DNA of 64,000 nucleotides. Source: Isoetes taiwanensis. Its lineage: Eukaryota; Streptophyta; Lycopodiopsida; Isoetales; Isoetaceae. Positions 12,451 to 64,000 of this stretch are shown piece after piece. The first letter of the stretch is position 1. Each line of letters starts with the position of its first letter. A program made the position numbers and the translations under genes. Location of the stretch: NCBI GenBank assembly GCA_021234155.1, contig JAJEKV010000020.1:10656346-10720345 (forward strand). The letters run 5' to 3'. Under the pieces are notes generated by a model. It was not told the origin of the DNA and ran no database searches. It saw only the letters and a list, made by a program, of their open reading frames with translations.

Positions 12451-12463
12451 ATATAGAGATAAC

Positions 12464-30600: not shown

Positions 30601-32370
30601 ATCCATATACAACACCAAAATATTTTTGTTAGTTCACTTTAGAAAAATATTTCATCATCTATTACAATGTAAAACCCCCAAACCCCCAAAAGGTGCTCTG
30701 CCCGCCTTTCTGAGTCCCCAAATTGGATTCTAAGCACCCTTTAGGCAACCAGAGACCCCTCAAACTTTGGAACCCCAGCCAGAGACCCCTCAAACTTTGA
30801 AAGTCATGGCCATAGAAGATGGGCCAGCCTGGGAAACCCAAGGCGAGGGGCCGCCGCGCAAACGGTCCCGATCAGCCATCATGGACAGGGGAGAGTCATC
30901 CTCCATGAAGAAGGAGGCTCGGGCTAAGGCTAAGGCCCCCTCAGCGAGGCCAGCCCGGTCGGAAGGGATTGATTGCTCAGACCACATAGGAACTCACCCT
31001 CGGCGGAATTGGAGCCATGTCAAAGCGGGGAGTGGAGGCTACTGCCAGCTCGTATTGAGGCTGCACGGTGCACCACGGCTAGCATGACAATGGAGATGGA
31101 GTCCTGCGGCATCCCATGTGCTCAAAAGGCAAATGGTGGTCGAGAAGAACCGCATCACAAATCGGAGACCCGCCGCGGCGCATGTGGAAGATGGCCTTGG
31201 CCTGGCACACCGGCGGCAACAGGCCGAGGCGGGGAGGTTGCCGACATGCGGCCGCCTGGACTCGTGTTCATCACTCGACACCATGACCACGAGGAAGGGA
31301 GCGTGCAATGCAAGAGACGATGGTCCGCGGTGTGTCGGCCGGCAGAGTGGAGGCAGCCACCACCATGGCACGCGAAGCGCAGACGCTTTTGCGAACAGCG
31401 AACCTTCGCCGGGATCTTGAGTAAGATCGAACGTAAGCCCGCCCTCGGCGCCCGTCTGGCTAGAGGCTCCTGAAACACGCTCGCTACTCGGGGCACAGAG
31501 CTCCGGGGTTGCGGGCAACCATCCATAAACGAGCCGGGGTCTCCCTACCGAGGTTCATAGTCAGTGGCCGGTGCGGCGGGGAGATGGCTAGGCGGCCCGG
31601 CCACTGCGAAGAGCTGTGCTCCGCCTTCCTGCCGGGGCGAGAGCTGGCTCGAACCGCTACCCGCCACGCCTCCCACGCCCGGCCAGCCAAGCCCCGCGTG
31701 CTGGCGACCCACCACCACCACCCCCCCCAAGACAGGACCCGGTCCCAGCCCCACCTTTGACCCAGCGGGCCGAGGAACTCCGTGGCGCAGCGGAGAGCCC
31801 ACACCGGTAGTTCGAGGCATGCCGTAAAAGCAGGGGAGAATCTGCACCATCCGGGTCCGAACATTTCGATCGGATGACATTCCGGGGCAATTCACATTTC
31901 TCGAAAGGCCCGTCATGGGGCTCGGGCCCCGTCGCGTGACCGCATTGTCATATTCACGGTTGCGGATGCACAGTGCGTGATGCCATATTGCGCCCGAGCC
32001 CGGATCTTTGAAGGGGACATCCCTATACGTGGACCGGGACCTCACACCCGTGCAGCGGGAGAATGCCAGGTACGAGGAGCTTGTCGGGTCGAGGGCATTC
32101 GCCAACAGGGGGCGCCCGATTGGTTCGGCCGGGGATGCACATTTTCCGGCGACAAACTGCTTTCGCGGAACCCGCAGCCCCAACCCGCGGTATGTGGCCC
32201 CGCCGGCTTCCCATACCGGCCCCCTTCTCCTGCTCCTACTCCTCCTCCTCCCGACCCGTGCCCTCTCCGACCACATCTTTGCCTCTTCCATCTACTTCTC
32301 CTCACTCGGCCTGCTTTCCTCCTCCCCGTGACTTCAAAGTTGCATACCATCCCTCGCCGACAAATAGGAA

Positions 32371-32900
32371 TTGTGCCTCCGGGTGGTCTCATGGAATTGT
32401 CGAGGCTTCCCTTGGCGAAGGGGCGGTCCCGAACTTCAGTGGCGGCCGATATGGATCTCATCTTTCTCATGGAGACATGGGAGCATCTTTGGCACAAAGC
32501 TACGATCTGCGGGTTACCAACATTTCTTGGTCTTCAATGCACATGCAGGGACGGAGGGTCATGGTGGAGTGGCTTGCTACTCTGGGACAACCTTGGCACA
32601 TTCGGTTACCCTCCGGAAGACAAACAGGACACAACCGATACTTGTGGGTTCGTGTGCATAATACCGGTGGCAACCCTCTTTTTACGGCGCTGTTATTTCC
32701 CTCACTTGCGAGAGCACCTTCTATCGCCAGCCACCCGATCGCGGATAGGATGGACCTTTATGTCGATCTATATGATGACATCTGACAACACCGGCGATTG
32801 GGTAGGGTCGTCCTTCTTGGAGATTTCAATGCAGGGCGAGTAGAGCAGCCCATGCGACTTGACCCCCTGGCGGCGATGTCCTGCGGCTTCGCCCCTTGAA
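32371..32900 (+). pseudogene. LINE endonuclease (EEP/AP type) remnant
   Basis: Frame 32,371 reads LRVVSWNCRGF, the first conserved motif of the exonuclease-endonuclease-phosphatase fold that nicks target DNA for LINE insertion. Later motifs are spread over shifted frames: ISSFSWRHG, GVACYSG, and around 32,800 a VLLGDFNAGR-like string near GGTAGGGTCGTCCTTCTTGG. Confidence 0.65.
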
Positions 32901-33839
32901 GCGGCCTGGCCACGAGGGATCGGATGGCAGCCGGGTCACTTTCGCTTTAGACGATTGCTCCTGCTATGTGTGGTATTTTTGACTTGATAATTTGCAATGG
33001 CCTGTCCACGGTGGCCGATTCGCAAGTGCACATGCGAGGCAGGACAATCGGGGAGGCCCGGTGTGGTGGACTATCTGCTTCGTAGTTGCGCCAAGATATG
33101 CATCTCATCGATCGTTTACGGGTGGGCGCGAGCGGTCGGGGATGAGGAAGGTTGACTCGAGATCACCTTCCACTTTATTTGGACCTGGTTTGGCAAGCCG
33201 CCAGAAACCCCCACTATGCCAGCCCCTCGCCGTCCCTCGGTTGAGACTAGGCTTGGGAGGACTATCTTAGAGGTGCTCATGGGCGCCTCCCGGGAATTCT
33301 CGCGGACCTCCACACTAGAAGCGGCGTGAGCAGGACCAGTTGACCCGCTATTACGGGATCACGGCGGACCAGGTGCTGGCGGACCTCCCAGCGTGCCGCT
33401 TCGGGTCAGCAACATTCCAGCAGAACCGATGGTTTGATGCGGAGTGTAAAGAATGCAAGCGGCAGCTCCGTCACGATACGGATCCGGTGCCCTTGCGGGG
33501 CCACCACCGCGATCAGCGCCCATCCGGAAGGAGACAAAGGCGGTACTTTTCCGTGCATCGAGAGGAGATGTTGGCTGCTGGACACTCATCCTCGAACCTT
33601 TGGCGCAAAGTGCTTGAAGGCCAGCCCGACCCTACAGGGGACATCACACCCAGGCGTGGGAGCGATACTTGCGGCAGCTCTATGACCCGGCCGGGGACGC
33701 GTGCGCCCATACCCCCACGGGATGGCCCCCCATTAGTTCTCGTGGAGGAGGATGTTGAGGAGGGCCCGCGAACGGGTGGCTAATGGGAAGGCGGTGACCT
33801 CTCGATGGTATCGCGGTAGAGTTACTCAAATGGGCGGGG

Positions 33840-34450
33840 CAGCTTGTGCCGGTCCTCACTACCTTGTTCAACGAGCATTGCATGAAGGTCTCCCCCACAA
33901 TGGACCACAAGCGGGGTTGTTCCCATTCACAAGGCGGGCGACCCACCTTTGTCCCACCAATTCTGGGGCGATCATGGTCGGTTCGATTATTTGCCAAACT
34001 CTTGGCTAGCATTCTCGGCGGCAGTTGACCCACGGGCGGAGGCCGCCAATGCGGGCTCTCACACGAAGTGAGCTTTAGACCCCCGCCACTCAACGATTGA
34101 CCATATCTTTACACCGCGGGCACTCGATTGAAGACAAACCGGAATCATCGGCGGGACTTGTATTGCTGCTTTGTGGACTTCGCGAAGGCTTTTGATACGG
34201 TTCCCGGAAAAGGCATGGGCTAAACTGCGTCAATCTGGGGCTCCCCGCTGCTGTGCGAGAATGCCATATACAAAGTTGTATGAGAGTTGTTTTGGCGGGG
34301 ATGCACCGGCCAGGGGCGGCATTCACCATAGTATCGGGGGTCCGGCGGGGTTGCCCTCTCTCGCCAACACTTTTTTTGCCTCTACATTGATCGATTAGAG
34401 CCACGGCTTCTTGAGCATGGGGGATGACATCACGACTTTTTGCACGGGTC
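33840..34450 (+). pseudogene. LINE reverse transcriptase remnant
   Basis: Across several frames the order is LTTLFNEHCMK; then PFTRRATHLCPTNSGAIMVG, the usual ...KAGDP..P.NYR.I.. block; then at about 34,140-34,205 DLYCCFVDFAKAFDTVP, the RT A motif with its catalytic Asp region; then a worn GGIHHSIGG / LPS block where RQGCPLSP is expected. No single frame spans it. Confidence 0.7.
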
Positions 34451-35881
34451 ATCCGCCCGGCTCATCTATCTTGCGGGCGATGTTGGCTTTTGCTGGCCCA
34501 CACCCGAAGCTATGTAGTCTCACTTGGATGCCCTAGACACATTTTGTCGGAGCTCTGAGACATCTTGGCGTGAATTTGGCCAAGACGGGGTGGTTCTCAT
34601 ATCCTCTTCCGTCACCCCATGCCTCCTGCACTCACATATCGGGGCAGCCTGTGGGCGCCACGCCCACCTACAAGTGCCCTGGGGTGGAGTTCCCCTCCTC
34701 CTTCTGGCGGGAGGTGTCTATCCGCTTGGGGTGACAGCAGGCTGGAGCGCTTTATGCCATCTTGGAACAAGCGATCCGGCAGAGGCTCTATGATTGGGGC
34801 CATCAGGTCACATCTGATTCAGAACGGTGTTAGGCACTGTCATACATGCGGGGTCGAGGTTTGGGGCCTTGTCGTCTCTTTGGCGACTGGAATGACTTAG
34901 GCAGTCACGAAGGCATTTTTGCCGCGGGCACAGGGTTAAACCAGTCCCCTATCGGTTACAACTGCGGGGAAACCCGGATTCTTGCGCCGGTACGGCCCCT
35001 GATAGACACATCGTCTATTTTGAAGTAGTTACTATGGGTGATGCTCGGCTCCCTTTTGGCTTCTACTTGTGGCAATGGGTCCTCGGCTTAGGGCTGTTGG
35101 AGGGTAAGAAGACATCGGTGGTTAGCTAGATGGAGCGTCGCGAGAACACCGTGTCGATGCGTCTTGGTGGACCTGGCGCGCAGTGACGATCGTGGCGACT
35201 GCGGGAGTACCTAGGCAGCTTGTTTCCTTGGCAAGCTCACGGGACCCGGCGCTCTAGAAGCAGAGTTAAAAGCGGCCCATTACAAGGAGCACATCAACCC
35301 GTGTTAGCGGGGTCCGCGGCTCTACCCCGTTCCCGGTGCCCCACGAAAAAGCGCGACTCATTGCCTCCGATTCGCCACAGTGCCCACCATCTTCGCGCTC
35401 GAGGCAGGCGGGTGGATTGGGAGCCCGCCGGGGCGGGCTCTGTCAGTCTTTGTCAAGCGGGTGCCATTGAGGATGAGTCTCACACTTTCGAGTTGTCAGC
35501 GTTGATCACATCCGGGCGGAATCGCTCCCTTAGAATGCGGCGGGACTTGCCCTTACATTTGCCGATGAACACACGTCGATGCGTGCCGCAAGGTGCCCTT
35601 ACATTGAGGGCGTTGGACTGCCTGGTCACCTTTGCCCCTTTGGCTGTCGGCGATTGGGCACCTCGGGTGCGGTGCATGGCCCGTATATATTTGGGTGTTT
35701 ACGCATTGTATATGTTAGGGCGGTTTGTCAGCGGCCGTGATTGTTTACACGGTTTTCCCTCGAAAACCCTTCGTGAGGGTTTTTAATCCGCGATGAATCC
35801 GGGCTTCTTGCGTTTTTGTATTGGGTCCCATAGACCGATTGGTCTCCGTGGACGATAAAAGTACCTTCCTTCCTTCCTTCC

Positions 35882-37200
35882 TTTCATGCTATAGAAATTC
35901 GGATTTCAAACTACTATCCTTATTGCTTCATATAAGATATTAAATTCATTCCCTTATTGCTTCACATCACAAAGCTATAGCAGCATAGAAACACATTGTT
36001 TTATTGCTAATATATTATAGAAACTTGCAGAAGCTCCATATCTAAAATCATCCATCATTCTCAAATGTAAAAATGGAAAATATAACGTACCGTGGCATTT
36101 TAAAGCGCAGTGGCAGCCTAAAGCATTTGCATATTCATATTATAGAACAAAGCATAAAGCATATGCTTATGTAAAGCATAATGCATATGTCCGTTTAAAG
36201 CATAGTGGCATCATAACGCATGCCATGGAAGTAGGCAATTAAAGAACAATGAAAGCATAAACTAAGTGTAGCATCAATCACAACACAACCGTTCTTATCC
36301 ATCTAGAATTTTAAGTAATAAGTCAGACCTTATAATGCACGTCCATCATGTTCTGAAGCTGCAAGTCTAAAACATGCATTTGAATCATTGTGTAACGTTC
36401 CTGAAACCATCACCAAAAAGAAACACGTCCTGCTACAACATCAGCATTCAGTTCTTTAAAATAATCAGCATTACCTTGAATGCACAAGCAAAAATCCCAG
36501 GTTCAATGGCATAACCAACTTAATGGTTTCATTAAAAAGCCAAAACTTACCCTGGTAAATGCACAAGGTTGCAGTGAAGCTGTTACACCATAATCTAAAC
36601 CAGCAGGAATAAGCATAGAAGGGTACATTCTAATTTGCATCATCACCAAAAAGTACCAAAAAGTAAAAGATCATTTCAATAGAAAATGCCCCTAAACTTG
36701 GGACATTTTGGGCAATTTTAGTAAAACATAAGTGTATTTTGGAGTTTTTTCCTTAAAAAGTTAGGGCAAATTGGATGAAGTTCAAATTCAAACAAAGGTA
36801 CTAAATTACGCATCACTTCTATGGTGATGATATAGTTTGTATAGTTCTTATTCAACATTTGGATGCTTCTACTTTCAAAGATCATGCAGTTACTTTAATT
36901 CCATTTCATTTCAAAATGCACTGAATAATATATAACCTAGGATAAGAGGCTTTTGTGGTCTTGGCACATGATATTGAAAATTTTTATCTCCACTGGATGT
37001 GTACATATTTAACCATGAACAGAAGATCCTTACAATATTGGTAAGGATGGATATTATCGTAAACTCTTAAAAGAATTGGAACTGTACATAATTTGATGTC
37101 CAGTAGATATTATACGCGTCAAAATGTGATTCAGAAACTTCAAAATTCTTTGCTGCTACTTGTCAAGATAGTGCAACTCAAGTTGTTTAGTTGTGATATC
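35882..37200. other. Non-coding spacer
   Basis: AT-rich, with a loose repeat of AAAGCATA(A/G)TG-type units at about 36,100-36,215 (AAGCATATGCTTATGTAAAGCA). No gene seen. Confidence 0.45.
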
Positions 37201-44600: not shown

Positions 44601-45000
44601 TTAATCTTCTTTCTTTGCTTCTCGGTGCCTTTCCTTCCAACAAGACTTTCAAGAGGCATTACTTCCTAAGGTACATCCTATTGTATCTGAGAAGCAAAGG
44701 GCTTGTTTAGTAGCAGAGATTATGGTGAATGATCTAGCAGATGCTACCTTTCTTTTGAAGAGAGGAAAGTGTCCTGGAATTGACGGTATTCTTATGGAGT
44801 TCTTTCAGGAGTTCTGGGATTGGGTTCGTGTTGATGTGTACGATGCCTTTCTAGATTTCAAGCAGCGGAGGCGTCTAGACAAAATTATCAACTTGGGATG
44901 CATTTTTCTTATTCCCAAGTGCAAGGAGCCTTTATCAATTTCAGATTGGTGCCCAATTACCTTGCTATCTTCTGTGTATGTCTTCATGTTCAGGACCATC
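41640..45000 (+). mobile_element. L1-like LINE fragment (ORF1, endonuclease, start of RT)
   Basis: Three parts in LINE order. ORF1-like: Ser/Pro-rich frames from 41,693 and a 225-aa frame at 42,514-43,191 (WGHYILYQAYTPSFLPS, FALEDFPIELPVPEF), resembling plant L1 ORF1. Endonuclease: from ATG 43,448 (MKLVSWNVRGVASCSTKRSR), with a stop near 43,561, then VLVAPAYSTEIGVLIAWRHD, then VAWLLVGDFNMDELEADRCG to about 44,110. RT start at 44,722 (KRGKCPGIDGILMEFFQEFW, IFLIPKCKEPLSISDW). The RT stops abruptly near 45,000 where a hAT gene begins on the other strand, so the 3' half is missing. Confidence 0.78.
42514..43191 (+). CDS. L1-like ORF1 protein (partial)
   Basis: 225 codons, open, ending in TGA. 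The N-terminal half resembles the nucleic-acid-binding region of plant LINE ORF1 proteins. The C-terminal part (from about residue 160) is rich in Pro, Ser and Ala. The true start may be upstream, at the remnants near 42,200 (MENNKKEVSAYLKELQAVED). Unlikely to be functional, since the endonuclease and RT that follow are broken. Confidence 0.5.
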   Translation: MVKATFTELDVPQHESLKILDKQNNHFLIMFVFPIAVDKLMEHVIDPLWGHYILYQAYTPSFLPSKTSTLRMPCWFALEDFPIELPVPEFMIAIHSGLGLHLAHSTINDPRIYISFSGDASFPKSVVVKSGPLFFKYNLFLLNGPELADMFPNAAAISSFCVRRTPPSAHAISSTPGQMSPSPSAPALVLIAFDSSHPAHAPVSIPAPLPLPSPESLATLSDEHH

Positions 45001-46542
45001 TCTAAAGAGAGGGTTTAGGAAATACCCGACTCTATGTAAAGGTGAGTGAAGCATTGTCGACCTTGCTTGCAATCCCTCGTGCTCATCTTGTATACGATTT
45101 ATGATGGACTGAATTCTAGAATAAGGCACCTTATCTTTTATACCATTGAGAACCTCAATCAAGTGACGCATGCACTCATAGATCAAACCCATAGTTGAGC
45201 TTTCCCTATCCGCTAGTCTCAAAACTTTCAACAAAGGGGTGAGCACATAAACAATCTCCTTGACTTGGATAAAGAAATCAATGCTTCTAATCAATGCATA
45301 AACTTCCTTACCATTGGGTCTTTTTGAGTGCTTCCAAACACTCCACTCGTCGTTCATGATCATGCTCACTAATGCTTTCTCAATTTCCTCACTTGCCAAT
45401 TTCTCCAAAACTATGAACAAGTATGAGAATCTAGTAGCTACTAGTTTCAACAAGGATCTCTTGCGGAACTTATGCCATAAAGAAATGTCGCTCTCCTTGC
45501 ACATGAGAAATGTCACAATCTTCTTTGCACCATTCACCACAGGAAGAACCCAATCCAATCGGCCTATATCTTCAAAGCGAAGATCTAAGCAATGGTATGC
45601 ACAACGTGTATAAAAGATAGATGGAAACTCCAATTCTAGCATCTCACCGGCTCTTACACAATTTGAACTATTATCAATAACCTGCACAATGTTCTCTTTC
45701 CTAACTATGTCAATATTAACCTTTTTGAACTCATCAAACAAAAAGATAGCATCTTTTTTCTTGCCGCTTGCATCAATAGATTTCAAAAACATGGAATCAA
45801 AACAATTCGAGGCCACAAAATTAATAATGGGTCTCTTCCTTACATCAGACCACCCATCTGAATAAATTGAAACTCCATACCTCTTCCATGTATTCTTCAC
45901 AGGCTGCAATCTTTGTTCCACAGAATTGTATTCTGCTTGTAAGTGTTTTTCCTTCAAATCACCGAAGCTTAATGGTTTGTATCCTGGACCAGCTTTAGCC
46001 ACCGCAGTACAGTACTTCTTGAAGAGTTTACTTTGTGCAATATTGTAAGCAATTCCACAGCCATAGAACAACCTGCGTTGTGCTTCATCTGTGTGTGCCT
46101 AAAAAGTTTTTGGATGGAGGATCCACTCCCAACATTATCCTCTTGGCGCTCTTGCGTGAAATATTGTTATCATAAACTGAAGATAAAGAGAGTCCACCTA
46201 TAGGAAGAGAAAGACAATTACAAAAAGAATAATTAACAAACATTAATTATGAAAGGGAAAAGTTATCTTACCGGCACTTTCTATAGAAGCAATACCCCCT
46301 AAGGCTAAGGATTCTTGCAGGAGTTCTTGTATGCAAATCCTAGCATCATCTGGATTGAATTGGGGATCAATCTCCTTGGCCTTTTTTACGGCCCTTGCCT
46401 CTTCCTTCTTTTCAATATCATTAAAGACATGGCTAGGTGCTCTTGGACACTTTTCTACACCAACTCCTTTCTTACCAATAATATGAGCACGAATCATATC
46501 AGCTCCACCAGTCCATGAATGGCCACAATACTTGCATTTCAC
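44990..46542 (-). pseudogene. hAT transposase (BED finger plus DUF659), 3'-truncated
   Basis: Leftward hAT-family transposase. Exon 1 (46,542-46,274) starts MKCKYCGHSWTGGADMIRAH, a BED-type zinc finger that binds the element ends, and closes at a GTAAGA donor. An exon starting near 46,176 reads YDNNISRKSAKRIMLGVDPP and has a single frameshift near 46,100. The main frame from 46,071 then has GYKPLSFGDLKEKHL, SIYSDGWSDVRKRPIINFVA (DUF659) and IVQVIDNSSNCVRAGEMLE. It ends near RVGYFLNPLFRDG where LINE sequence begins, so the C-terminal dimerisation region is missing. No TIRs or 8-bp target duplication found. Confidence 0.82.
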
Positions 46543-49640: not shown

Positions 49641-49649
49641 AGAATTTCA

Positions 49650-50040
49650 AGCACAGCTAATTTGCTCAAGCACAAATAGTTTCACCTACTTCTTGAGCCC
49701 AAGATACATGAGGTCACATGATACATATATCCATACAAATTATGCATTATACTTGTACGTGTACATGATACTTGTACACGCTCAATAATGGCGCTACAAT
49801 GTACACCTCCTCGTCCAGAGCACATCCAAACCATCAAGTGCTCCATGAGCTACAATGATCTTTTGCGTGAGAAAGGGTGTCAAACTTGATCCCTATCTGC
49901 AATCCAAAGCTAATGGTCCTGAGATTCGTTGCCTCGGGCTAATTCGTGTTGTGATCCATCTTATTTGGATTCCTGAGCGCGAGATCTATGAGCTGAATGC
50001 CATTACCTCAGCAGGTGTTGATGATGAGTGAATCAGTTAT
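49650..50040 (+). pseudogene. Duplicated gene fragment, copy A
   Basis: Runs parallel to 50,190-50,676 with about 80% identity by eye (AATTTCAAGCACA, GATACATATRTCCATACAAA, CCTGCAATCCAAAGCTAATG, CTGAGCGC). The coding end reads in broken frames as LQSKANGPEIRC, IHLIWIPERE and TSAGVDDE before TGA. Less intact than copy B. Confidence 0.6.
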
Positions 50041-50056: not shown

Positions 50057-50180
50057 AAGGATATAATGATATAAACACTTCTGAAATATGTAAGGATGTA
50101 TAAGCATAGTGAATATTATTTGATGTATCGAACCTGAGTAATTTGTAAGGTTGTGCTCGTCGACCTCCACTTTTTCTGCA
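50057..50180 (+). repeat. Left copy of 124-bp inverted repeat
   Basis: AAGGATATAATGATATAA...TTTTTCTGCA matches the reverse complement of 63,877-64,000 with 5 mismatches in 124. Its inner end, read on the minus strand, gives LQKKWRS, similar to CWHKRWRP in the nearby transposase C-terminus, so the repeat may include worn coding sequence. Confidence 0.9.
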
Positions 50181-50376
50181 AGCAGTCCCTAATTTCAAGC
50201 ACACCTAATTTACTCAAGCACAAAGACTTTTACCTACTCAAGTCCAAGATATATGATTACGCATGATACATATGTCCATACAAATTATGCGTTGTACTTA
50301 TAAGTGTACATGATACTTGTACGTGCTCAATAATGGTGGCACAATGCACATCAATAATTCACATCAATAATTTTAC

Positions 50377-50667
50377 TTGACTATAAAAGCAGCTCCATTC
50401 GTTAGTAGAGATCATTCATCTCCAATGGATTATTCGCCTACTCTTGTGCACCACATCGAGGCGATCAAGTGCTCAATGAGCTACAATGATCTTGTCGGTT
50501 GCCAAATAAGGGATATTCTTCTAGATCCCTACCTGCAATCCAAAGCTAATGGTGCAAAGATTCGTTGCCCCAGGCCAACTCGTGTTATGATCCATCTTAT
50601 TTGGCTTCCTGAGCGCAATAGCTATGAGATATCAGGGATCACCTTAGCAGGTGTTGAGGATGAGTGA
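50377..50667 (+). CDS. Small ORF of unknown function, copy B
   Basis: 96 codons ending in TGA. Contains VHHIEAIKCSMSYNDLVG, LLDPYLQSKANGAKIRCPRP and RVMIHLIWLPERNSYEISG. Its decayed duplicate lies 0.6 kb upstream. Conservation of the peptide between the copies (LDPYLQSKANG, IHLIW.PER, AGV.DE) suggests a once-real gene. Family not recognised; it may belong to the surrounding mobile element. Confidence 0.4.
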   Translation: MTIKAAPFVSRDHSSPMDYSPTLVHHIEAIKCSMSYNDLVGCQIRDILLDPYLQSKANGAKIRCPRPTRVMIHLIWLPERNSYEISGITLAGVEDE

Positions 50668-50697
50668 ATCAGAATTTCAGCAATATATAATGTAGCA

Positions 50698-51318
50698 GGG
50701 ATAGGTTCTGTACGTATGAAATCTAAATTCCTGACGTATAAAGTTAAAAAATGCGTATTTTTTTGGAAAAAAAGCGTATTTTTTTTAGTCGGCGGCGTAT
50801 TTTTCGCGTCGCCGATACCTTGTTTAGTCGGTAGAGGTTTCAGCGTCGCAAAAAAGTAAAACTAACGTCTGGGGGGAGGGGACCTTATAGTAATGCAGCC
50901 AAACTATCAGACGAGAAAAACCGATATCTCCAGCGTCACATGGGTTTCATACGCCAAAACAAATTCAAAAAAAAAAAAAAATTTTGTGCCCACTTTATCA
51001 CAGGTTTAAGAGGTTTATAAGATTTCGCGTACCACCGAAATTCAAATTTCAAATTTATGCACGGATTTTTTTTTTCCGCGCGAAAAACCTTTTGTTTCGC
51101 GAAACTATCCATAGACGAAAACATGGTCCGTTTCGATACTGTACGGTTTTCGCGTGAAAAAACCTTTCAGCGTCTGTAAAATGTTTTCAGCGTCGCCTGG
51201 AAAAATCTTCCGATGCCAGAATTTTTTTCTTGGTATTTTATACATCAAATATGTCTTGGTATCATACAATTTATACATTATTCCATATAAAACCGTCTAA
51301 ATAAATTAAACCTATCCA
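50698..51318. mobile_element. Possible MULE-like MITE with GCGTCGC repeats
   Basis: GGGATAGGTT at 50,698 pairs with AACCTATCCA at 51,309-51,318 (9/10). The flanks AATGTAGCA (50,689-50,697) and AATGTAGTG (51,319-51,327) match at 7 of 9 positions, as an old 9-bp duplication would. The inside repeats AGCGTCGC/GCGTCGC about four times plus GCGTATTTTT units. TIRs are short, so this is tentative. Confidence 0.4.
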
Positions 51319-51327
51319 AATGTAGTG

Positions 51328-51806
51328 ATGTCCCTGGATTTTTTTGCTACATATTCTAAGCGAGGTGCACCTTTTGTTTACGGTCGCCGGATCTGTCAAT
51401 CCGACGGCCCCGCATCAGATGTTGGAGCCTCACGAACACCTCTCGTTCGACAGATGCTCAATTATGATTGGGGACGCCTATGATTTTAAGATGTCGAATC
51501 TGAGTTTGCCTAAGGTTTTTGATGGTATATCAAGAAATTCTATGTTTTTCACAAGCTTTTAGAATATGAAATCTTGATTTGAACCTCTACCAAAATAACT
51601 TTCCTAATAAGACTACTTTAACCAATCTAACCATAGCTAATGTGACTATTTTTTATCTTAAATCTATGTTTTTTTTTATAATAACCCATTGAATTGTTTT
51701 AGGGATATGGTCTATGGTTTCAAGAATTATATCTATATCAAATCCCCCTGGAACCCCCTGTTATTTTGCTACATATAAGATATAGTAATGCATAAGAGCA
51801 CTTGTA
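51328..51806. other. Non-coding spacer downstream of the transposase
   Basis: AT-rich. The open frame at 51,344-51,562 shows no motif. Probable 3' flank of the leftward DUF7869 gene. Confidence 0.4.
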
Positions 51807-54800
51807 TTAATCTGAAAAATGCAGAGAGTAATAAAAAATAACTATTTTAATGTACCTTGAAGACTCAAGTTTCATCTTCGTCCTCTGAGGCCTCTTTGGC
51901 AAGTAACTTTGTAATTGAGCCGCTACACTCGCAGGTATCACTACCATCTGAGGCTTGTCCTTGACTGACCAACCATAATCTATGGTTTTGAGATGTTGAT
52001 AACGCGGCCTGTCGTTCAGATTTGGCCTCCACCTTTTATGCCAGCAGTCCCTATACTGTTGTTCATAAGAGGTACCTTTTCTTGCTATCGGCTTCCACCA
52101 AGACACGAACAACACCTCTTAAGTGTGGGGAAGAGTTGGGTCTTTGCCTGAGGCTCCTCTTCAGCAAAAGGCCATCCATCACGAAGATGAGTCTCCTGGT
52201 CTAATGAGCAAGAGCATACCCTTCTTGACATCTTGGTAGGGATCGAATGTTTCAACTGGGTTTTGTGGTTTATCCTTTGCAGGGCCGACATAGTGCGGAC
52301 GTGTTATGTACTCGTCGAGCATTACTGACTCAGGCTCCATTAGCACGGACTGTGTAGTGAGAGGCCAGAAGTCTTTAATTTCCTGGGTTCCAGGTGGGAC
52401 CTGTCCAAGTGCATGCATCAGAGTCGACCAGTAGTCAATAACCTCATTCATGTAGGCATTAGACCATGAGTTTACACCACCATGAGATATGTTTGCCCAA
52501 TGCATCATGTACTTTGCAATGGACGAGCGTAAGGCACCCATATCTTTGAGGCTATCATATGGCTTCACAGCCTTAGGTGTTATTGGCATACCATCTGCAT
52601 CTGCCTTCCACATTCTTATTCCATTCTCAGGGAGCCATTCTCGATGCCCTGGCCTCATCTTGTAATATATAAGTGGCCATCCATCTTTCATGACAAATTT
52701 GAAGAGCAGGGGCTCCAGGTGCCCAACCAAGCAATCCTTCTTGTCTGGAATCTATCCTTTCACAAATGACTTCCAATCAGAAACTTCAGTGACTAGGTAC
52801 GGCGTCGGTGCTTTGGTACTACACTCTCGAAATAACTGCATGAGTTCAGGAATGGTGAGTGCATCTGACCTGCGCAATAATGTTGAGTAATTCCCGAACA
52901 ATGCATCAATGTCATCATGGGTATGGCCGACCATCATAAATCCAAGCTGTATCTGATAAAAAACCCCCAGCCATACAAGATAAGAAAGGTAGGAAAAGAG
53001 ATATCTGTTCTTGTTCTGGCCAAAGCAATTGTCCAGTTGTAAATATAGCCTTCTAGATAGATGTTTGGGGTGAACTGGAGCACTAGGAGGGGCCATAAAT
53101 TCTTGTCCAGTGCTACTGACCTTTTTAGTCCTAAATGCCATAGTGTTGAGGACTGCTGCTCCCCATGCACAATCAGGGCGCTCAACTTCTCTTAAATGGC
53201 CCCAGTTGTCTCTCGAAGCATCCTCCAGGGTTTTAAGCGTGTGGTTCAAGGACCCAATATGAAAATTAAAATCATCCTTCCACAAATCTAGTGAAAAATG
53301 GCCCAGAGCCCCAATACCATGGCCATGCATCAATGCACCTGTCACACTTACTTTCAAGTGTTCTCCTCTACACACTCATTTGGCTAACTTCTCAAATCTA
53401 GGTACCATTGTCTTGTTCTGATCCATCTTGTCATGAATGATTGTCAGAGCTTGCTCAGGAGCACGATGTGATAAAGCTCTCCACGACCAATACAGGCTCC
53501 TACAAGAAATCTGTGTTGTCATGTGTGCCTTCCTTTCGATCTGCAATTCTCTTCTCTCTATTGGATCTCTTGTCTTAGCCATTTTCTCTTTTATTACAAT
53601 ACAGCTATTGCACTTGGAGAAAGCTATCCTCTTCGCAATTGCAACCTCTGGGTGATGTAACTTCCATCCCCCTAAGAATGATGATTGGGAGATGTGCTTG
53701 CATGTCATCTCCACTACACTGGCATCCACCTCGTGGAGAATGTTCTTCTTTGTTAGGACAGAAGGGAGCCTCTTCACATTCGCTCTCACACCTTCATTAG
53801 AGATTTTTGACCTATGGGGCATCGTCTTTGCATTCTCATCTATGTACATAGACAGTAGGGCATTTCATGCTAGAGTGTGCGACCTTGGTTTCTTTGAGCC
53901 CGTATTACCATGTTCAAACCCTATGACCAGCAAGGAAAAGTTTACGCCACTTATAGAAAGTTGACATTGGAATGCTGCAAGCTTTGTGCCATGCTTTCAA
54001 GCATACTTGCTTGTTATTCAGCATCACCTTCCGGACTTGCCCATTTTCTGAGCAAAGGTCAAGCATGTTATAAGCAAAGGTGGTCCTGCCCGATGCACTT
54101 ATGTTCCAAAAGAAACTTCGCATGCATTTGATCTCACAGATGGAGAAAAGGGCACAGCATCTGCGAATGCAGCAAATCGTGGACTTGAAGTCTAGAATAG
54201 AGGCCGCAGTGATTTTCTTATCAACCTTGCATGGGGTAGCAGGTGTTCGTGGTGTTCGATTTACCATTCTATAAGACCTCTTTCGAGTCTTAGGAACTTC
54301 CGCTTGCATTGCATATGGTTCTGCTTCGATATTCTGTTCTTTCACAGCCTTTATGAAAGTCGATACTGGGATATTGTCAACTAGCACGAAGGCATTGGAC
54401 CACCTCACCAGATCGTGCAGTTGCGGCATTTCAGCACAAGCTTGGCATCTCATAGACGACTTCTCTGGCATGGGGCATATCTTCATCACGGTGGCAGCCA
54501 GGAAGTCTTCCCCTAACCTTATGTCGCCAACTACCTGGTTAGGATAAGTGAAAATGATCATCCCGTGTGCATATGGCATGTAGTAGCAGTCATGCATCAG
54601 CATGCAGTTCCTCTTCACCAACTCATCTCTTGAAATGCCTCTATTAGAACAGGTTTGCTTGACGGAACTTTCCTCGTCTTCGACTACCTGCCAGTTAATT
54701 TTTTTTAATTGCGCTGGCGGAGTCAATATGTCACCTTCTGATGCGAGGGACGCTATAGAATTAACAGGCCATACAATGAAACTCCCGAGAGAATCTCCGA

Positions 54801-54975
54801 GTTTTGAAATCTCCACTTCTGGATATGGCAAGGGTATGTTGCCATCCAAAATCTTATCCATAGACACTACCATGGTGTCCCCCCGCAAGGGCAAGTTGTG
54901 ATGTTTGTTGAAGTCATGTACTTTGCCCTCGCCAACTTTGACACCGTTGGATAATATAGATCTTGCCTCAGTCAT
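51807..54975 (-). pseudogene. DUF7869-type transposase-like gene, lightly broken
   Basis: Leftward gene of about 1,000 codons. The N-terminal segment (54,975 on) resembles the DUF8039-like region of plant transposases (LPLRGDTMVVSMDKIL, KLGDSLGSFIVWPVNSI). Next come CCIRRCCALF and a helix-turn-helix-like CLKAWHKACSIPMSTFYKWR (ending near 53,930). The DUF7869 core is at 53,100-52,860: YLQLDNCFGQNKNRYLFSYL and FMMVGHTHDDIDALFGNYS, with Asp residues fitting an RNase-H-like fold. The tail (52,115-51,807) has YRDCWHKRWRPNLNDR. Damage is one frameshift near 53,880 and three single in-frame stops near 53,377, 52,753 and 52,180. The first and third are TGA where CGA would fit. Function as transposase is inferred. 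Confidence 0.8.
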
Positions 54976-55520
54976 CTTGAACTGACAGGGCCGACATTGC
55001 TACTAGAAATTGCGGTGGCGATAATGCGTAGTACTAAATGCTTTTATGAGGGAGGATGTTGAATAGCAAGAAAAACCAGAGCTGTTGAAGATCGCGCCCG
55101 CGATCTAGCTGAGGACTCCCGGGCTTTTACAAGTAGGGTCCAATGCTGAGACACGATTGCTCGAATGCCAAAGCACGTTTGCTAGAATGCTGAGATATGC
55201 CTGTTTTTAGCTGATGAAGATCGCTGTCGCGATCTAATTAAGGACCTACAGATTTGTCCACACAACGGACATTAAATTAGTTAGTTTGCTACGACGTGTG
55301 AATAAAGACATGTGAAGCAATTTCTGTAGAATTATGGTTTTTGGAAGCAATTGATGATTTGATTGGTACACCAGGTTGATGTTTATGTTCTGAAATTCAT
55401 TTCAGACTCACTCAAGAAGTATTTAGTATAAAAACGTGTAACTACTACTGCTCTCTAACTTGTTCATTAGATATAATGATGTTAAAATGATATAAAGAAG
55501 TTATATAGATGTTTTAGTAG
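54976..55520. other. Divergent intergenic region, left part
   Basis: 5' side of the leftward transposase gene. Contains the first two GATCGCG palindromes and AT-rich DNA. Probable promoter area; no box assigned. Confidence 0.4.
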
Positions 55521-56488
55521 TATGACTTGCCTGTTTACACTCTTCACATTGTCGAAAACTTTCGCAGATGTCGCAGCAGTCGAAACTCAAGTAAAATCTT
55601 TATAAATATTCTAGATCGCCTTCCCTGTGCGGTTGAGCGCCTCAAATCCCAGCAATTTAAAACGATCGGCTTCGAAGAAATATTCAGCGCCTCAACAGCC
55701 TCCTCCTCGAGTCCAATTCAAATGAATGGCTAATGTGCCTGTGTAGCTGGGTCAAATGTTTTTGAATTTCAAATGCAGGTAGTTTCGGCAGGGCATTTCA
55801 GTTCCGTATTGTTACTCTGATATTCCTAATTAAACTCGCGTGCCATGAGTATTATGTTTTCCTGCAAAATGTCCGATGCCGTATTGTGAGTGTCACTATC
55901 TCATTTAAAATGGCATGCCTCAACTAGTCAGATCTCCCTCCCCTGTCACATGGTATAGAATTTTGAACTCGGTGCGTGGACGTTCGTATACAGAATAAAA
56001 GTTTGAAATACGGCCTTTTTAAGAATATTCTTGAACCGCTGCCAGAATTTATTTCACCAGCTTTATTTAATTCGCCCGCGAAAATTACTGCGACCGTCGA
56101 AAATCAATTTTATGGCAGTCATTATGGCGGGCTATTAATGACCCCCATTCCATAAATTAAGGAAAATTCCAGATTACGGCCACTTCGCGAACCTTTTCAA
56201 GAGCGCCATAAAAAAATTTCGAGCGCCTTCGACCACCGCCATGTCTCGATCAGCCGCCCTAAAAGAAGGTATTTTCCGCGCTTTTCAAGACCACTGCTAT
56301 CGTTCTAGCATTACTTGTCCTGTTTTTAGCATTGTATATGCTCGAAAGGATCGCGACCGCGATCTTCACGAGCAATATTTCTATATTTTCACAGTCTTAA
56401 TGCCCGTGAGAATCGCGATCGCGATTCCTTTCACCAGTATGTATAGTATAGTCTGGTTGGATTGCTCAAAACTATCGCGGGCGCGATC
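55090..56488. repeat. Five GATCGCG..CGCGATC palindromes
   Basis: GATCGCGCCCGCGATC (55,090-55,105), GATCGCTGTCGCGATC (55,219-55,234), GATCGCGACCGCGATC (56,349-56,364), the perfect 18-bp GAATCGCGATCGCGATTC (56,410-56,427) and TATCGCGGGCGCGATC (about 56,473-56,488). All lie in AT-rich DNA between the two divergent genes. Arms are conserved while the 2-bp centre varies. Confidence 0.88.
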
Positions 56489-56489
56489 C

Positions 56490-59400
56490 TATTGAGCACT
56501 TTTTCTTTTTATCATATCTTTGGTCGCTCATAAGGATGTGATCCGCGTTCCTTGTGACCTCTGGCTGTTAGCAATGTTTTTAGAAGCTTGGCAAAGATTT
56601 TCGGCATGTTCCAACGAGTTATTTTCAAAGTCGACTTCTCATCACTTTCATTTTGCTAGCATCAGGTCCTCGAGGCATTCGAATGCCCAACGCCGAACCC
56701 CATTTTTGTAACTCCGATAGAAGTCGAAAGTGGTGCATGGAAATAGATCAAACCAAACCACATGTTGCAGGAGATCGACGAAAGGACTTATGTCTGTTCT
56801 TGAGGAACAGAAAGGGGCCAGAAGACTTTGAACAGATGGGCATAATAATTACTATGTGCGAAGGCACCAAAAATAACGTTCAGGATGCAATCATATGCAC
56901 GGCGTGAAGGATACACAAACAACATCCTACGGTTTGTGGAATATGTTTTGCGTTGGCAAAACTATGATCCATCTATCATGACCGTAAGCAAAGCGAATAA
57001 GCCTGCTAGTGGGAAGGGGGTACCTACTAGTGCCAAAGGATATGGCTAGAACTTGCTATCTTATGATTCTTTGAGCCTTATCTTGTGGATAAAGTGCAAT
57101 AGTGATATACTTGTTGGCTTCAAAGATGTGTAGGAAGGGCCTTTATAGGCGATAAAAACCTCCATCCATTGCATTGAAGGCTAAAAAGGACAACAAGATG
57201 CCTTTCGGGATGGACCGCATGCCGTTGCGGGCAAGGTTGCCAAGAAAGGCCTTGATCCCTTCCTCCACACAGCCATCGACTCCAAAAGAATCCTTAAGGT
57301 CATCTCCGTACGGAGCACAACTCCTACAAATCCGTTCATTTCAGGAAGTTGTCAACCACACAAAAGTTTTGTTACGTTACAAAATATGCTTATGCCACTG
57401 AGTAAGGGATTCCCATACACATAGGGGACCTCTTCCCAAGAAGATAAGTACCTTCAAAATTAAACTTGAAATTTAAACGAAGAGACAAGGCTTGGATTTA
57501 CCTCATCTACTCCCACCTCCTCTACCAATCCTATAGCTGTATACTTCCTTGTTAACTTGGCCATCCCTTATCAATTATGCCATATGAATTAAAATTCAAT
57601 CCGGATGAAGAAAAAGAAGTTAAAGGGGGAGCAGGGCACGGAAGGTCAAGCTAGAGGAATTTAAAAGATTTTATCCTATGGGAGTGAATTGGTTTCAAAA
57701 GATCGGCATTTTTTATTGTGAGACAACCCTGCTAATCTAACTCATAGGGTTCGATCTACAATTGACCATGTTATGTAAACATTCAATCGGGGAGTTTCAA
57801 GAGATGCCCAACAAAGGTTCTCCGCGCTTTGCCGATGTTATGCCATTTGACCCGGTGTCAAGGTAAGGTTCATTGCATTTTTTCCTCTCATTAAGTGCCG
57901 CCCAATTTACAATGCCTATTGATTGATGGGACATTAATGGGGAAATTGATCACTTGGTCTCCGTCTGGGGAGACTCTTGAACAAAAATTCTATATTATTT
58001 CGTTTTGAAATCATAGTATTTTTTCCTTGACAAATTCTATGCTCTATGATGGGAAAAACAAGCAACGGCTTGAATTTGCCAAAGCTTATACAAAACGGAG
58101 AAGTCGGGTTTTAAATGGAAACCTATCCAATAAAAAGCATAATTTCATTAATTATGGACAATACACGAATTTATGGACCATTTTTAATACACTTGTATGA
58201 ATGACTCTTTTTTCATACACTAATTGACATCCTCGGAAGTCTTGCATATGCCTCCAATTACCACCCGTTCTTCTTAATTACCATTAGGTAATGTTTTTCT
58301 TGTTTTATGTCCCAAGGCATGATTCGATAGTCTCTAGTTCTATGAAGTCACTTGCGGTCGTTGGCCTCCATCTCTTGTCCGACCAATTGGCATAATTATC
58401 CTTTCAGACTTCATGGCAATTAGACATCGAGATTGGCTCCCACCAAGTCACCGAGAATAAACCTTTGGAGTTCTCCTTCTTGATTATCCATTTGAAGATG
58501 GTTTCGGTCGAAGATAACAACCTAGCCAAGAACCTCTTGCTAGAAAATCATGAAGGTTTGATAAACATTTAAAACCCAAATTCCTCCGTTCTTTGAATGT
58601 AATTTTTTTCCCCTATTTTCAAAGTTAAATGTAAGCCCCTCATTTCAAAGGAAAATGTCAGCCCCAACTTTTTAAACATATATTCCCTTCATGGTGCCGC
58701 ATGATTAAAATTAAAATTCCATGGGCCTTAAAGGAATTGGGCCTTCCAACTCTCGGATATTAATACTTTGAGATCCCGGAGACCAAGGTACCACCCTCTG
58801 CAAACCCTAGATTCCCTTTTAACACTAGTCGTGCCACTCTTATAGGCCTTTCATGTTGTTGCCGAACATGTCATAAACAAAAAGTAACCCTATCACTAGA
58901 TTTCATGGCAAGGAATTCCTTTTAGCATGTTAACAACTTGATTGGTGAGAACTTGGCTTAACACCTATTTTTGCATCCACAAGGTCCTCCCCTATCATCG
59001 AGGATAGCATTCCCAATGGTGAGACGAACAAGTTTTGGTGGCCTTACAACCTTCCCGGGCTATCTGAAAAGTGTATGTCGTTTCTCATAATTTGGGTGCT
59101 TCTAATGCTATAAGAACTGAACCCTGCGGACACTATATCTTTCTGTTGTGGTGTCTGCGCCCAATATCTCTCGAGACCTTCATTCCGCCAACACTTAAGG
59201 GTCATTGTTCCATCTCTCACGAAGTCCCCGTTTGGCCATATCAAAACATCCCCGGCAACCCATGTTCACTTTGAGGACCCGGTTGTGGCTACTCCCACAA
59301 ACTTAAAACCCCCACCGGTCACCTCTTTCCATCATCAAGGCCGCTGAATGATATGAATCCTTTTTCCGCAATAATGGAGTGCACAAGAGTGCCATATGTC

Positions 59401-59860
59401 ACAATCCATTTCAAATAAGGGGTATATCTTGTCGGGGTTGTGCCTCCTTTCCCACCTCATGGGCCATTGTCAAATTCTGGGGACGTCATTTTGCTAGGAC
59501 GACTCACGAGCATCTTCACTTTTCAGAACAAAATGAGCCCCGGCTTAATTTATTGTGTTTGCATCTGAGTTCGGCCAAGGAAGGGGTATGGTGGCCTTCG
59601 ATCCTTCCCAATATACCAACGCTCACTACTCCATGTTGATTCCTTGAAGTGGCATTGTGTCAAATTTGCCCCACAACTCCTTTTGCATCCATCCATTTCA
59701 TTAAGGAAGAGATACACAACTAGAATAAGGGTTTTAATAGTTTTAAACCATGGCCGAGGAAGACGAGAAAGCAATGCAAAAAACATAGGGGGATGCTAGA
59801 ATGCACTGGGAAATTTTGCTGGGGCCGTGTTCTAACACTTCTTTCCATTGTGTAGGAATT
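56490..59860. other. Degenerate stretch upstream of the rightward gene
   Basis: No convincing coding sequence. Short open frames (56,653-56,907; 57,174-57,401; 59,379-59,639) lack motifs. CGA/TGA-rich text and occasional peptide-like runs suggest heavily decayed coding DNA, perhaps older element genes, but I cannot assign it. Confidence 0.35.
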
Positions 59861-61380
59861 ATGGCGCAAACAAAGCAGACTGCTCAAGTTTGTGGGCCCG
59901 CACCGAGATTTGCAGAAGCTATAGCCGAAGCAAGAACGGAAGAAGACAAAGAACTGTTTGCTGGCATCACTGCAGTGCCCCATGAAGTTTTGACGGTTGC
60001 TGCAGCATGGACCTGGTGCATGGAGATAGGGAACATTCACCCTGGGTCCCAGACGAACCACCTCAAGGACCTTTTGCTTTATTTTGGCGAGAAAGGGACA
60101 CGGAAAATGCACTCAGCGGGTATCCTCATCGACATGGAGGTCTCACCTGATAACAATGATGAATTCCAGATCGATGTCGAACACACCATAGATCGGGCTT
60201 TCGTCCGTTATAAGCTTCCCCTTTCTGGCTACGAGCCCTGTATGATGCAGGCAAGCATAACTGAAAGCCCACAATCTTGCGCTCATAGAGGATGGGTGCT
60301 AGACTCATATGAAAGTTTAGAGCGCTCGGGCATCAAATCAAGAACTGATATCATGGATGGCTTCTACGCTGTCCGGCAGTGGATATTTGAACACAAACAG
60401 AATAGGTCTAAAGCATTGTATATGGAGTATCAAGGCAAAAACCAACCCAAAATCTACGATACTAAGTGGCTTAGGTCTAGATATGGAGTTCCAAAGAAGA
60501 GCGAGATAGCACAAGCGCCCGTGGAGACGCCGACAATTGCAAAGAAGGCTAGGACACCTGCCACGGCTATTCCCAGTAAAGCTGCCCCTAAACTTTTATT
60601 GGGTGGAATGTCGAGGACATGAAGGTCGCCTGAGGTCAGTGCAGAAGAGAAACAATCGTCTGAAGAGGAAGCCGGTAAGCGCAGAGGACAACTTGTAGCT
60701 GGTCCGTCCTCCAAGAGACACAAGCGGGACATCTCACTTGGGAGCCCACATGCTTCGGAGAGGGAGTCTTTGTCTGCTTCTTCAACTGAAGAACGGGAGA
60801 CTAGCCGGCAGATCGTAAAAGTCACTCCATCTAGTGGCGACGTCACATAGGAGAGCAGACATGAGTTGTCCTAGAGTGCCATTGTCAACATCAAGCACAG
60901 GGAGAGAATTTACCCTCTGGGGGTGGGCTTCGAGATTGAAATCGATATGTTCAAGATGCACAAAGCCCCTGCAAATATGACATGTAGGGTCATAAGTCCA
61001 GAGCACTTGGATACTCTGTATGAATCATTTATCAGCCATCAGATGCACCCTCCCTGTGCTGATGTCATACCATTTGATCCACAGACAAGACGAGCAATTA
61101 AGTGGAAGAAGGCACGGCCCTGCAAAATGCAGAATTTTGGATTGTCAATGGCAACCATACGATGACGGTTGCTCAACTGCTTGTCACACAAGCTTTGGCA
61201 TGGCCTCCTGAAAGAAGACTATACACGAAGAAGTATTCTTTGAAGAAATTCAGCAGTTCAAAACCAGTGGGCATTCTACGGGAAGCCTCAGAAGGGAAAA
61301 CACGGCCAGTCCCTGGGTGGAGATTATTCTGTGAGTGCTCTCAACCATTTTTTTTGATACTTCGTGCTATCTTGTAGTGC

Positions 61381-61549
61381 CAAATTGGGCACCCGCCCAA
61401 TTTGAGACATTGAGACACTGAACTCAAATTGGGCGGGTGCCCAATTTGCCTGAATGAGTGCCAAATTGGGCGGGCGCCCAGTTTGCCTCAAAGAGTTACA
61501 AAATTGGGCGCCCGCCGAATTTGGCAAATTGAGCGCCCGCCGAATTTGG
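61381..61549. repeat. Five TTGGGCGSGCGCCCAA palindromes in an intron
   Basis: Copies of CAAATTGGGCG(G/C)(G/C)(T/C)GCCCAATTTG at 61,381-61,404, 61,425-61,448, 61,461-61,485, 61,500-61,524 and 61,525-61,549; the last two are directly adjacent with a G change in the right arm (CCGAATTT). Three more copies follow further right. All five lie within the predicted first intron. Confidence 0.9.
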
Positions 61550-61619
61550 CTAATGTGTATGGGCCTTATCTAATGCATTCTGTGTACTGTAGGATTGGGT
61601 GACTGTGGCGCTGTAGACA

Positions 61620-62655
61620 TTGAAAAAGACAATTATGCGGGACTACGACTACTTTGTTTATCTGGATGACGAAACGTGGTCCATGTGCAGTGAAGTCGCC
61701 CAGTTATTTTACGAAGATCATTTGAAGGATGAGAAGGGAGAAAAAATTGAAGTGAAAGATAGACTGAGACTTTTCACCAACAATTCCTGTCGCCCATTGA
61801 AGTCCATGCATCCTCTAGATCTGCAAAGGCTGATGAAGGAGATCAAGAATGGCTCCACATTCCTCAAAGGAAGCAAAGATTATGGAAGACGTACCATGAA
61901 AGTCAGGGCCCTTGAGCTGAAGAAGATTGGAACAATGGAGCGGGCGCTTGTCAGATACCTGAAGGAAGTGAAAAAACTACCATTTCAAGACATGGCTGCC
62001 TTGAGGCAAGCTCACCCCATATTCACAGAGAATTTAATGCTTATGTTCGCCAGCAGTATTAGTGGATGGGCAGAAGGCCGCAAAGAGATCGAGAAGGAAA
62101 GCTTTTCGGAGTCCCTCTACGGCAAAGTAGACGAATATCTTCTTGGGCAAGTTGAGGAGGGGGGCAAACCGTTCAAGTGTTTCCACGTGAGTCCATTAGG
62201 TTTGTGCGTAGACGTGGTGAACACTTCTGCCCGCTTCGTTGGTTGCGACTTCAGATATACAAAGAAATGGGCAATGGAAGATTATCAAAAATTCCTTGAC
62301 CAGCTTAGCACGATGACGGACCAACAGCTTTACTGGATAGCTATATTTATTACGCCGAACCGCCTCAATGAGTGCCTATCCGCCATGAAGACAATAGACA
62401 GTGGCAGCCGTGTTTGGGTTGGTTCCTACCAGGACCCCCCTGCCAAAAGTGCTTCTACCTCTAAAGTGCGAGAGTTGCAAAGTCTTGTCTTGCTAATGTA
62501 TGTTGCCAGAGATGCTGCGGCTCTGCCATCTCTAGATGAATTAAATATTTGCTTTGCCAATTCCGACCATCCTAAGCAATATGCTAAATTTTCCAAGCAT
62601 TTGCGAGAAAAACAGGACATCGAAAAGAATTTGCCTGATCATGAGTGTGCAGCAG
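61620..62655 (+). CDS. Novel alpha-rich domain of the multidomain gene (largest open exon)
   Basis: The longest open stretch of the rightward gene: RDYDYFVYLDDETWSMCSEV, LQRLMKEIKNGSTFLKGSKD, ISGWAEGRKEIEKESFSESL, RFVGCDFRYTKKWAMEDYQK, and near the end LDELNICFANSDHPKQYAKF. A TAG lies two codons before the TTG that opens this block (61,614), in the same frame as upstream VTVAL, so the exon probably begins at 61,593 after a CTGTAG acceptor. FANS...K.. recalls a segment of fern transposon proteins next to methylase motifs. No database family known to me. Confidence 0.5.
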
Positions 62656-62665
62656 GTATGCATTT

Positions 62666-62690
62666 CAAATTGGGCGCCCGCCGAATTTCG
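62666..62690. repeat. Palindrome copy inside the second intron
   Basis: CAAATTGGGCGCCCGCCGAA+TTTCG, 10 nt after the GTATGC donor. It carries the same CCGAATTT variant as the 61.5-kb copies. Confidence 0.85.
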
Positions 62691-63696
62691 TTGTAGACTG
62701 TGAATGTTTCTAACATTTGTTTTCCCTGCAGCTTATTGGCTATATCGTCCCTGGTGCGATAAGGGTGCAGCAGGTGGGGGAGGAGTTCTCGTCCAGAATC
62801 AGTTGGATTGTAGGACGTGCACATCTAATACAGAAGTTGATATTAGAAGGTTGCACTATTCTCGACTTCTTTTCTGGTGGTGCTTTTAGCCGGGCTGCAT
62901 TGTGTAAGGGCTATAAATCATTGTCGTTTGAGACAGAAGAGAAGCTGGAAACTAAGCTTGTAGATATTCGAGCAACTCGACGTCATGTTAGACGAGAAAA
63001 AATCAAGAGCTCGAGCATTACAAAAGATCAAAGAAGGAAAGAAGAAGGCCTCCACTTCCAAAAATATTCCTTAGCCTCAGCTTCCTGTTCCTGAGACACC
63101 TTGTCCGTTCTCCTCTACAACCATAAATGAAGTGCAATCCATTTTGAGATAGGACAAGAGCTCGATTCAAGAAGAGCTCAAAAAAGCAGCGGCCCTTGGC
63201 TCTCAGGATTTGCAAGTTTTTAGGAGAAGAAAAGATACCATCAACGCATTGGCAGGGACCGCACTGGTGAATACTCAGGACATGATTGAGGGGACCACAA
63301 GGTTCGAAAAACAGGTTGCTAGGGATCCTGAGTCTGTGATCGTCATGGAAACTCAGGAAGGGGCTGAAAAGGTCCCCAACACATTGGACAATCAAGATGG
63401 AGAGGAAGAGGTCCAGAACACATTAGACAATCAGGCTGCAGATGAGGAGAATGAGGAACTGGGGTCTGAAGATTTCGTGCTGAGGATGGAAAAAATCAAG
63501 GAGGCAGCACAACAACCTCCGCCCCAGTCTGAAGAACTCAGAGAGGAGCATTCAGAAGAGGTGCCTCCAGACGCATGAGGGACTTGTGATTACAACCATG
63601 AACAGATTGGAAAACATTGTAATTATTTTTTTTCTAATGAATGATAATTTTTCCTTCAGTTCCTTGTCTTAAAGTTTTCTAGTTTCCTTTGCTACC

Positions 63697-63833
63697 CAAA
63701 TTGGGCGGACGCCCAATTATGGTTACCGTAGAAGATAGAACCTATAATTAAATTTATTTAACACCCAATCTACTTGCTGTGAACTTGAGACCTTCATTGT
63801 CCTCTGGCGGAAATTGGGCGGGCGCCCAATTTA
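63697..63833. repeat. Two palindrome copies in the 3' flank
   Basis: CAAATTGGGCGGACGCCCAA (63,697-63,716, continuing TTA) and AAATTGGGCGGGCGCCCAAT (63,811-63,830, continuing TTA), just downstream of the multidomain gene and before the inverted repeat. Confidence 0.88.
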
Positions 63834-63876
63834 GTAGCTATCAGTGTCCGCAGTTGAACGTGAGGTGAAGTGGAAG

Positions 63877-64000
63877 TGCAGAAAAAGTGGAGGTCGAAGA
63901 GCACAACGTTACAAATTACTCAGGTTCGATACATCAAATAATATTCACTATGCGTATACATCCTTACATATTTCAGAAATGCTTATATCATTATATCCTT
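63877..64000 (-). repeat. Right copy of 124-bp inverted repeat
   Basis: Reverse complement of 50,057-50,180, 119 of 124 positions identical. The match is still running when the window ends, so the repeat may be longer. Confidence 0.9.

Follow-up and report, generated by a model that had tools for sequence, protein, structure and literature searches.

The 64,000-nucleotide stretch of the Isoetes taiwanensis genome analyzed here (assembly GCA_021234155.1, contig JAJEKV010000020.1, forward-strand positions 10,656,346 to 10,720,345; hereafter the window, numbered from its first base) carries near its right end two broken genes that run away from each other. The left one, L1, encodes a DUF7869 transposase-like protein, and the right one, R2, is an orphan gene. 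Two more relics lie between them and are new here: R1, a second, decayed copy of the R gene, and L2, a weaker and doubtful remnant of the L gene. The locus is probably what remains of a DUF7869 element and its orphan partner gene, present in two neighbouring copies (Table 1). An earlier description made from the sequence alone (the original prediction) had proposed one large divergent element enclosed by inverted repeats; it mentioned neither R1 nor L2, nor the mutations that disable L1 and R2.

Table 1. Features of the DUF7869 locus, with positions in the window.
Feature	Position	Strand	Remark
L1	51918..54999	-	broken DUF7869 transposase-like gene
R1	56731..57863	+	second R-gene copy, strongly decayed; matches 56731-57121 and 57645-57863
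L2	58344..58484	-	possible relic of the C-terminal end of the L gene; weak
R2	59861..63578	+	broken orphan gene, probably three exons
R2 segment earlier called ParB-like (IVNGNHT)	60875..61330	+	non-significant profile alignment
R2 segment resembling methylase motif I (TILDFFSGG...FETE)	62822..62974	+	hhalign
GATCGCG-NN-CGCGATC-like palindromes, five	55090..56488		between L1 and R1
AAATTGGGCG-NN-CGCCCAATTT-like palindromes, eight	61381..63835		R2 intron 1 (five), intron 2 (one), 3' flank (two)
Left inverted arm	50057..50180	+	
Right inverted arm	63877..64000	-	cut by the window end
Copy A, small gene	49643..50036	+	20 bp left of the left arm
Copy A', same small gene	50191..50672	+	10 bp right of the left arm

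The identity of L1 is clear. Its segment 52752-53375 matched the Pfam family DUF7869 (PF25273) with E 5e-40 and 137.6 bits against a cut-off of 26, which bears out the leftward DUF7869 gene of the original prediction. A read-through of 561 residues retrieved 20 full or partial relatives among 2814 candidates (E ≤ 1), with E from 1.7e-106 to 2.5e-12 and coverage of 48-99% of the L1 piece searched. In an alignment of 15 rows (L1 and 14 of the 20 relatives), residues D198, D278, N279, K285 and H316 were invariant and D318 and D320 near-invariant; all seven are kept in L1. The upstream piece 53914-54999 matched P0002 (pairwise E 2e-23), and a hidden Markov model (HMM) of the L family covered L1 in pieces. 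Pfam describes DUF7869 solely as a domain of unknown function. No paper naming it was found among 5.39 million open-access papers, a collection that leaves out most subscription papers. The L family may act as a transposase.

The reading frame of L1 is broken. In-frame stops occur at 53865-53867, 53376-53378 and 52752-52754, the frame changes near 53.91 kb, and the stretch between 52.19 and 52.11 kb holds either three further stops or two frame changes. Structural approaches added little: a single-sequence AlphaFold model of L1 reached a mean predicted local distance difference test score (pLDDT) of 34.1 and was useless, as was that of R2 exon 2 (mean pLDDT 37.2), and the best E values against solved structures were 0.41, 0.1 and 0.14, with one further search giving no match up to E 10.

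The rightward gene of the original prediction was likewise recovered, as an orphan on the plus strand. R2 has an open frame of 359 codons, compared with a maximum of 209 in 500 base shuffles of the same stretch. Likely GT-AG introns at 61331-61592 and 62656-62731, placed by eye and checked at their borders, probably divide the gene into three exons, and 63153-63578 would also belong to it. R2 is disabled too, with in-frame stops at 60620-60622, 60848-60850 and 60872-60874. Near 61.11 kb its frame changes, and further changes probably follow downstream. At E 1, no relative of R2 was found among 7997 scored candidates sharing most words with it, nor among 2258 in another search (5.8 billion-protein set). 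No match below E 0.01 came from Pfam, NCBIfam or PHROGs; phage records gave nothing better than E 7 for R2 pieces, IMG/VR no relative, and solved structures nothing below E 0.1. The collections behind these null results lean microbial and may omit the window's own genome, so that they have little bearing on plants.

Decayed relics were sought by tblastn with L1 and R2 masked, using 300 shuffled queries as controls. R1 is homologous to R2. The stretch 56731-57121 matched R2 in two colinear pieces with E 1.1e-5, a score reached by none of the 300 shuffled queries. A third piece, 57645-57863, follows in the same order with E 0.018 and was equalled by 7 of 300 shuffles across the whole masked window and by 1 of 300 within 55.0-59.8 kb. 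L2 was found on the minus strand at 58362-58451 with the C-terminal piece of L1 as query (E 0.007; equalled by 4 of 300 shuffles across the whole masked window and by 0 of 300 within 55.0-59.8 kb). When the sequence was reversed, these three queries did no better than E 0.13, 0.68 and 0.27. The L-family HMM ranked 58344-58484 first among all places off L1 within the 64 kb, though only at E 0.63; L2 is weakly shown to be an L-gene relic. Another L1-like match, at 58880-59272, was rejected, since 50 of 300 shuffles scored as high across the whole masked window and 3 of 300 did so within 55.0-59.8 kb.

Palindromes had been predicted in the gap between the genes, in the introns and in the 3' flank, and they are there, in two families confined to the locus. 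Eight AATTGGGCGNNCGCCCAATT-like sites lie in the R2 introns and 3' flank, with 0.06 expected, and one further half-site of this type stands just past R1 at 57899. Six GATCGCGNNCGCGATC-like sites occur in the window against 0.44 expected; five of them lie between L1 and R1, and the sixth, at 13005, has 3 mismatches and seems to be a chance match. The two families have a GCG-NN-CGC core in common and differ in their flanks. This core, which was picked after both families had been seen, occurs 13 times in the window, 11 of these at the locus, and all seven instances with arms of at least 6 fall within 55.1-63.8 kb.

The predicted inverted repeat pair is also present: the two arms, 124 bp each, agree at 119 of 124 positions (5 mismatches, 96%). 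Base 64000, the last of the window, is also the last base of the right arm, and it is therefore the window edge, not the repeat, that fixes the outer borders of both arms. The left arm is flanked by A and A', tandem copies of a small gene that align in two DNA pieces with 79.6% and 83.4% identity. The copies are 154 bp apart; the arm fills 124 bp of this gap and stands 20 bp from A and 10 bp from A'. Copy A' carries TATAAAAG and an 80-residue frame beginning MDYSPTLVHH; the small gene matched no Pfam family above cut-off. Because the arms are 96% identical, the A/A' duplication likely predates them. The position of the left arm argues against its being the left end of a 14-kb element; a short repeat lying there is the simpler explanation. 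For the arms as a pair, a short repeat, dispersed or duplicated and present in two opposed copies, is likelier than the ends of an element. Neither Rfam nor ARAGORN found a tRNA match in the arms. A possible third L relic in the left arm (EIRDCLQKKWR) was rejected, with E 0.67 and no place among the L-family HMM matches listed.

Our preferred reading, to which we assign a probability of roughly one half, is that the locus consists of relics of two adjacent copies of a two-gene DNA transposon and that the 124-bp arms are a short repeat, not its ends. Provided that L2 is real, the order L1(-), R1(+), L2(-), R2(+) forms two head-to-head pairs. That both genes travel together is favoured by R1 and, weakly, by L2. 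Each copy would have comprised an L gene (the DUF7869 transposase-like gene) and an R gene (the orphan accessory) diverging from a shared central region: L1 with R1, the latter nearly gone, in copy one, and L2, nearly gone, with R2 in copy two. L most likely carried out the cutting and joining of the element's ends, and R most likely bound element DNA, plausibly at the GCG-NN-CGC palindromes, as an accessory or regulatory factor. These roles, and the common movement of L and R, are inferred. Should the L-R pairing hold across whole genomes, a transposon type with two genes would be defined by it, and the orphan protein family would gain a context and testable binding sites.

Several results weigh against this interpretation. 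The L2 match is weak, spanning 30-47 residues with an HMM E of only 0.63, and tblastn with all 20 L relatives (E ≤ 0.5) returned four rows, none at L2, the best being E 0.024 at 36063. The gene order also fits a convergent R1-L2 unit nested within L1-R2. No element ends were found for L1-R1 or L2-R2 in the ranges tried, either as 14-bp inverted ends with at most 2 mismatches and a target duplication or as CACTA-type ends with a target duplication. As to the palindromes, two other repeated families of different build occur at 5795-5958 (GCGGTATAAATTTATACCGC) and 12460-12757 (AAGGAATATTCCTT), none such being seen in 5 shuffles; this genome may therefore be rich in palindromes generally. The short-repeat view of the arms has to do without a third arm copy in the 64-kb window (blastn, E 1e-3). 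Its signal of a short interspersed nuclear element (SINE) is weak: the score of the tRNA-SINE-like A/B box pair in the arm was equalled by 21 of 2000 shuffles and by 25 of 1023 other window pieces and is only suggestive.

The doubts about L2 lend some weight to the view that L and R are unrelated neighbours, L1 being a dead DUF7869 transposon, R1 and R2 tandem copies of one host or other orphan gene, and L2 a chance match. R shows no mobile-element domain and no relative in the collections searched, and L2 is weak (4 of 300 shuffles; HMM E 0.63; no tblastn match by the 20 relatives). However, L2 sits between R1 and R2 in the orientation that forms a second head-to-head pair, and it is the first-ranked place of the L HMM off L1 in the 64 kb. 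We regard this explanation as tentative, with perhaps a minority chance of being right.

An unlikely alternative is a single transposon of about 14 kb that carries L1 and R2 between the 124-bp arms as terminal inverted repeats, with R1 and L2 as an older nested element. The arms are 96% identical, there is one on each outer side, and both lie downstream of the outward-running genes. The stop count in L1 and R2 also roughly matches the age derived from the arms, whose divergence predicts 2.4 and 2.5 nonsense changes in the two main genes, with at least three observed in each. Against this stands the order of A, arm and A', on which the 14-kb element was rejected as the leading reading: it would have A' inside and A just outside, and is consistent only if A' is captured cargo lying beside its own outside duplicate. 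The original prediction of a mobile-DNA relic with a DUF7869 gene and a divergent partner is supported; its single element framed by the 124-bp arms is not supported.

The original prediction further assigned to R2 a chromatin or DNA-modification function, based on H3-like, ParB-like and methylase-like parts. The H3 likeness comes down to seven residues, AQTKQTA, at the N-terminus, which we take to resemble the tail of histone H3. Pfam found no family in 59789-60622, and the H3-like reading was rejected, as no domain matched.

For the other two parts, the yardstick was a phage protein with ParB_N and N6_N4_Mtase domains above cut-offs (L004), together with eight relatives. Pfam was run on two of these nine proteins, and in the second (L005) ParB_N fell just under cut-off. 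R2 was compared first with a profile of the nine. Two separate profiles followed, one built from 10 ParB parts and the other from 14 methylase parts, the latter made of phage and E. coli sequences. With the nine-protein profile, the best ParB alignment lay off the G-H motif and 71 of 100 shuffles scored as high; with the separate profile it fell on the expected G-H motif, yet 49 of 150 shuffles reached its score. The control YbdM scored 34.9 compared with 12.6 for R2, and Pfam found no ParB match on the joined R2 segment. The ParB reading is consequently unsupported.

The methylase comparison was more favourable. Motif I aligned in the expected place with the nine-protein profile (E 0.0067, 1 of 100 shuffles as high) and with the 14-sequence profile (hhalign, E 8.4e-4, 0 of 150 shuffles, 51 columns). 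The score was 30.8 for R2 against 197.7 for the control YhdJ, R2 has FSGGA where motif I has FxGxG, and Pfam found no methylase match on R2. A catalytic DPPY-type motif ([DNS]PP[YFW]) was absent from all three plus frames of 59789-63600, in which one DPPA occurs at 62433. The methylase reading stays alive but weak, and of the proposed DNA-modification function only motif I, faintly, persists. The literature on ParB, methylase and giant transposons, and on RNase H-like or CACTA transposases, led nowhere in the parts available.

R2 could stem from a plant DUF7869 transposon lineage in which the second gene goes back to a ParB-methylase fusion of phage type, with catalysis lost and GCG-NN-CGC palindromes now bound. 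We consider this very improbable. If true, the fusion-derived protein would mark or handle element DNA during transposition, and the palindromes bound would be those that the element retains in its introns, its gap and its 3' flank. Least plausible of all is a relic of an integrated virus or plasmid with R as its ParB-methylase fusion protein: such fusions are common in phages (both domains occur in L004, and among 439 phage records that match it, 289 extend over at least 80% of its length) and motif I lies near the C-terminal side of R2 as it does in them, but no other viral or plasmid gene appeared among the frames scanned, R2 pieces matched phage records no better than E 7 and found no relative in IMG/VR, and R2 has introns and lacks a DPPY-type motif.

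Elsewhere, the window holds other eukaryotic features besides introns. An open frame at 7944-8501 contains part of an Ssu72-like protein (E 1.6e-21, residues 18-84) and continues into sequence that looks, by eye, pentatricopeptide repeat-like. A DUF659 frame lies at 44965-46098 (E 3e-41); DUF659 proteins are often hAT-type transposases. A Ty3-type capsid fragment at 19810-20286 is weak, with E 4.8e-4 and a match that falls short of its cut-off. The region 30001-36000 forms a G+C island of 52-59%, compared with 33-49% across the rest of the window (2-kb steps).

Among known systems, DUF7869 (PF25273) proteins are the closest to the left gene, as L1 fits their Pfam model, aligns with 20 full or partial relatives and differs in being broken. 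Phage ParB_N and N6_N4_Mtase fusions offer a partial likeness to R2, whose methylase motif I aligns to them and whose stretch earlier called ParB-like lies upstream, as ParB does in the fusions (L004). R2 departs from them in its non-significant ParB part, the lack of a DPPY-type motif and several hundred additional residues without known domain. Plant CACTA (En/Spm) elements differ from this locus in that the genes diverge here and that CACTA-type ends with target duplication were not found for the sub-elements in the ranges tried; on the composite, 25 candidate pairs came up, 24 of them within the arms and one at 51437/63867. The two-gene plan of a transposase with a DNA-binding accessory protein is nevertheless known from these same elements, and the L1 stretch LGSFIVWP near the N-terminus resembles one found in plant CACTA proteins.

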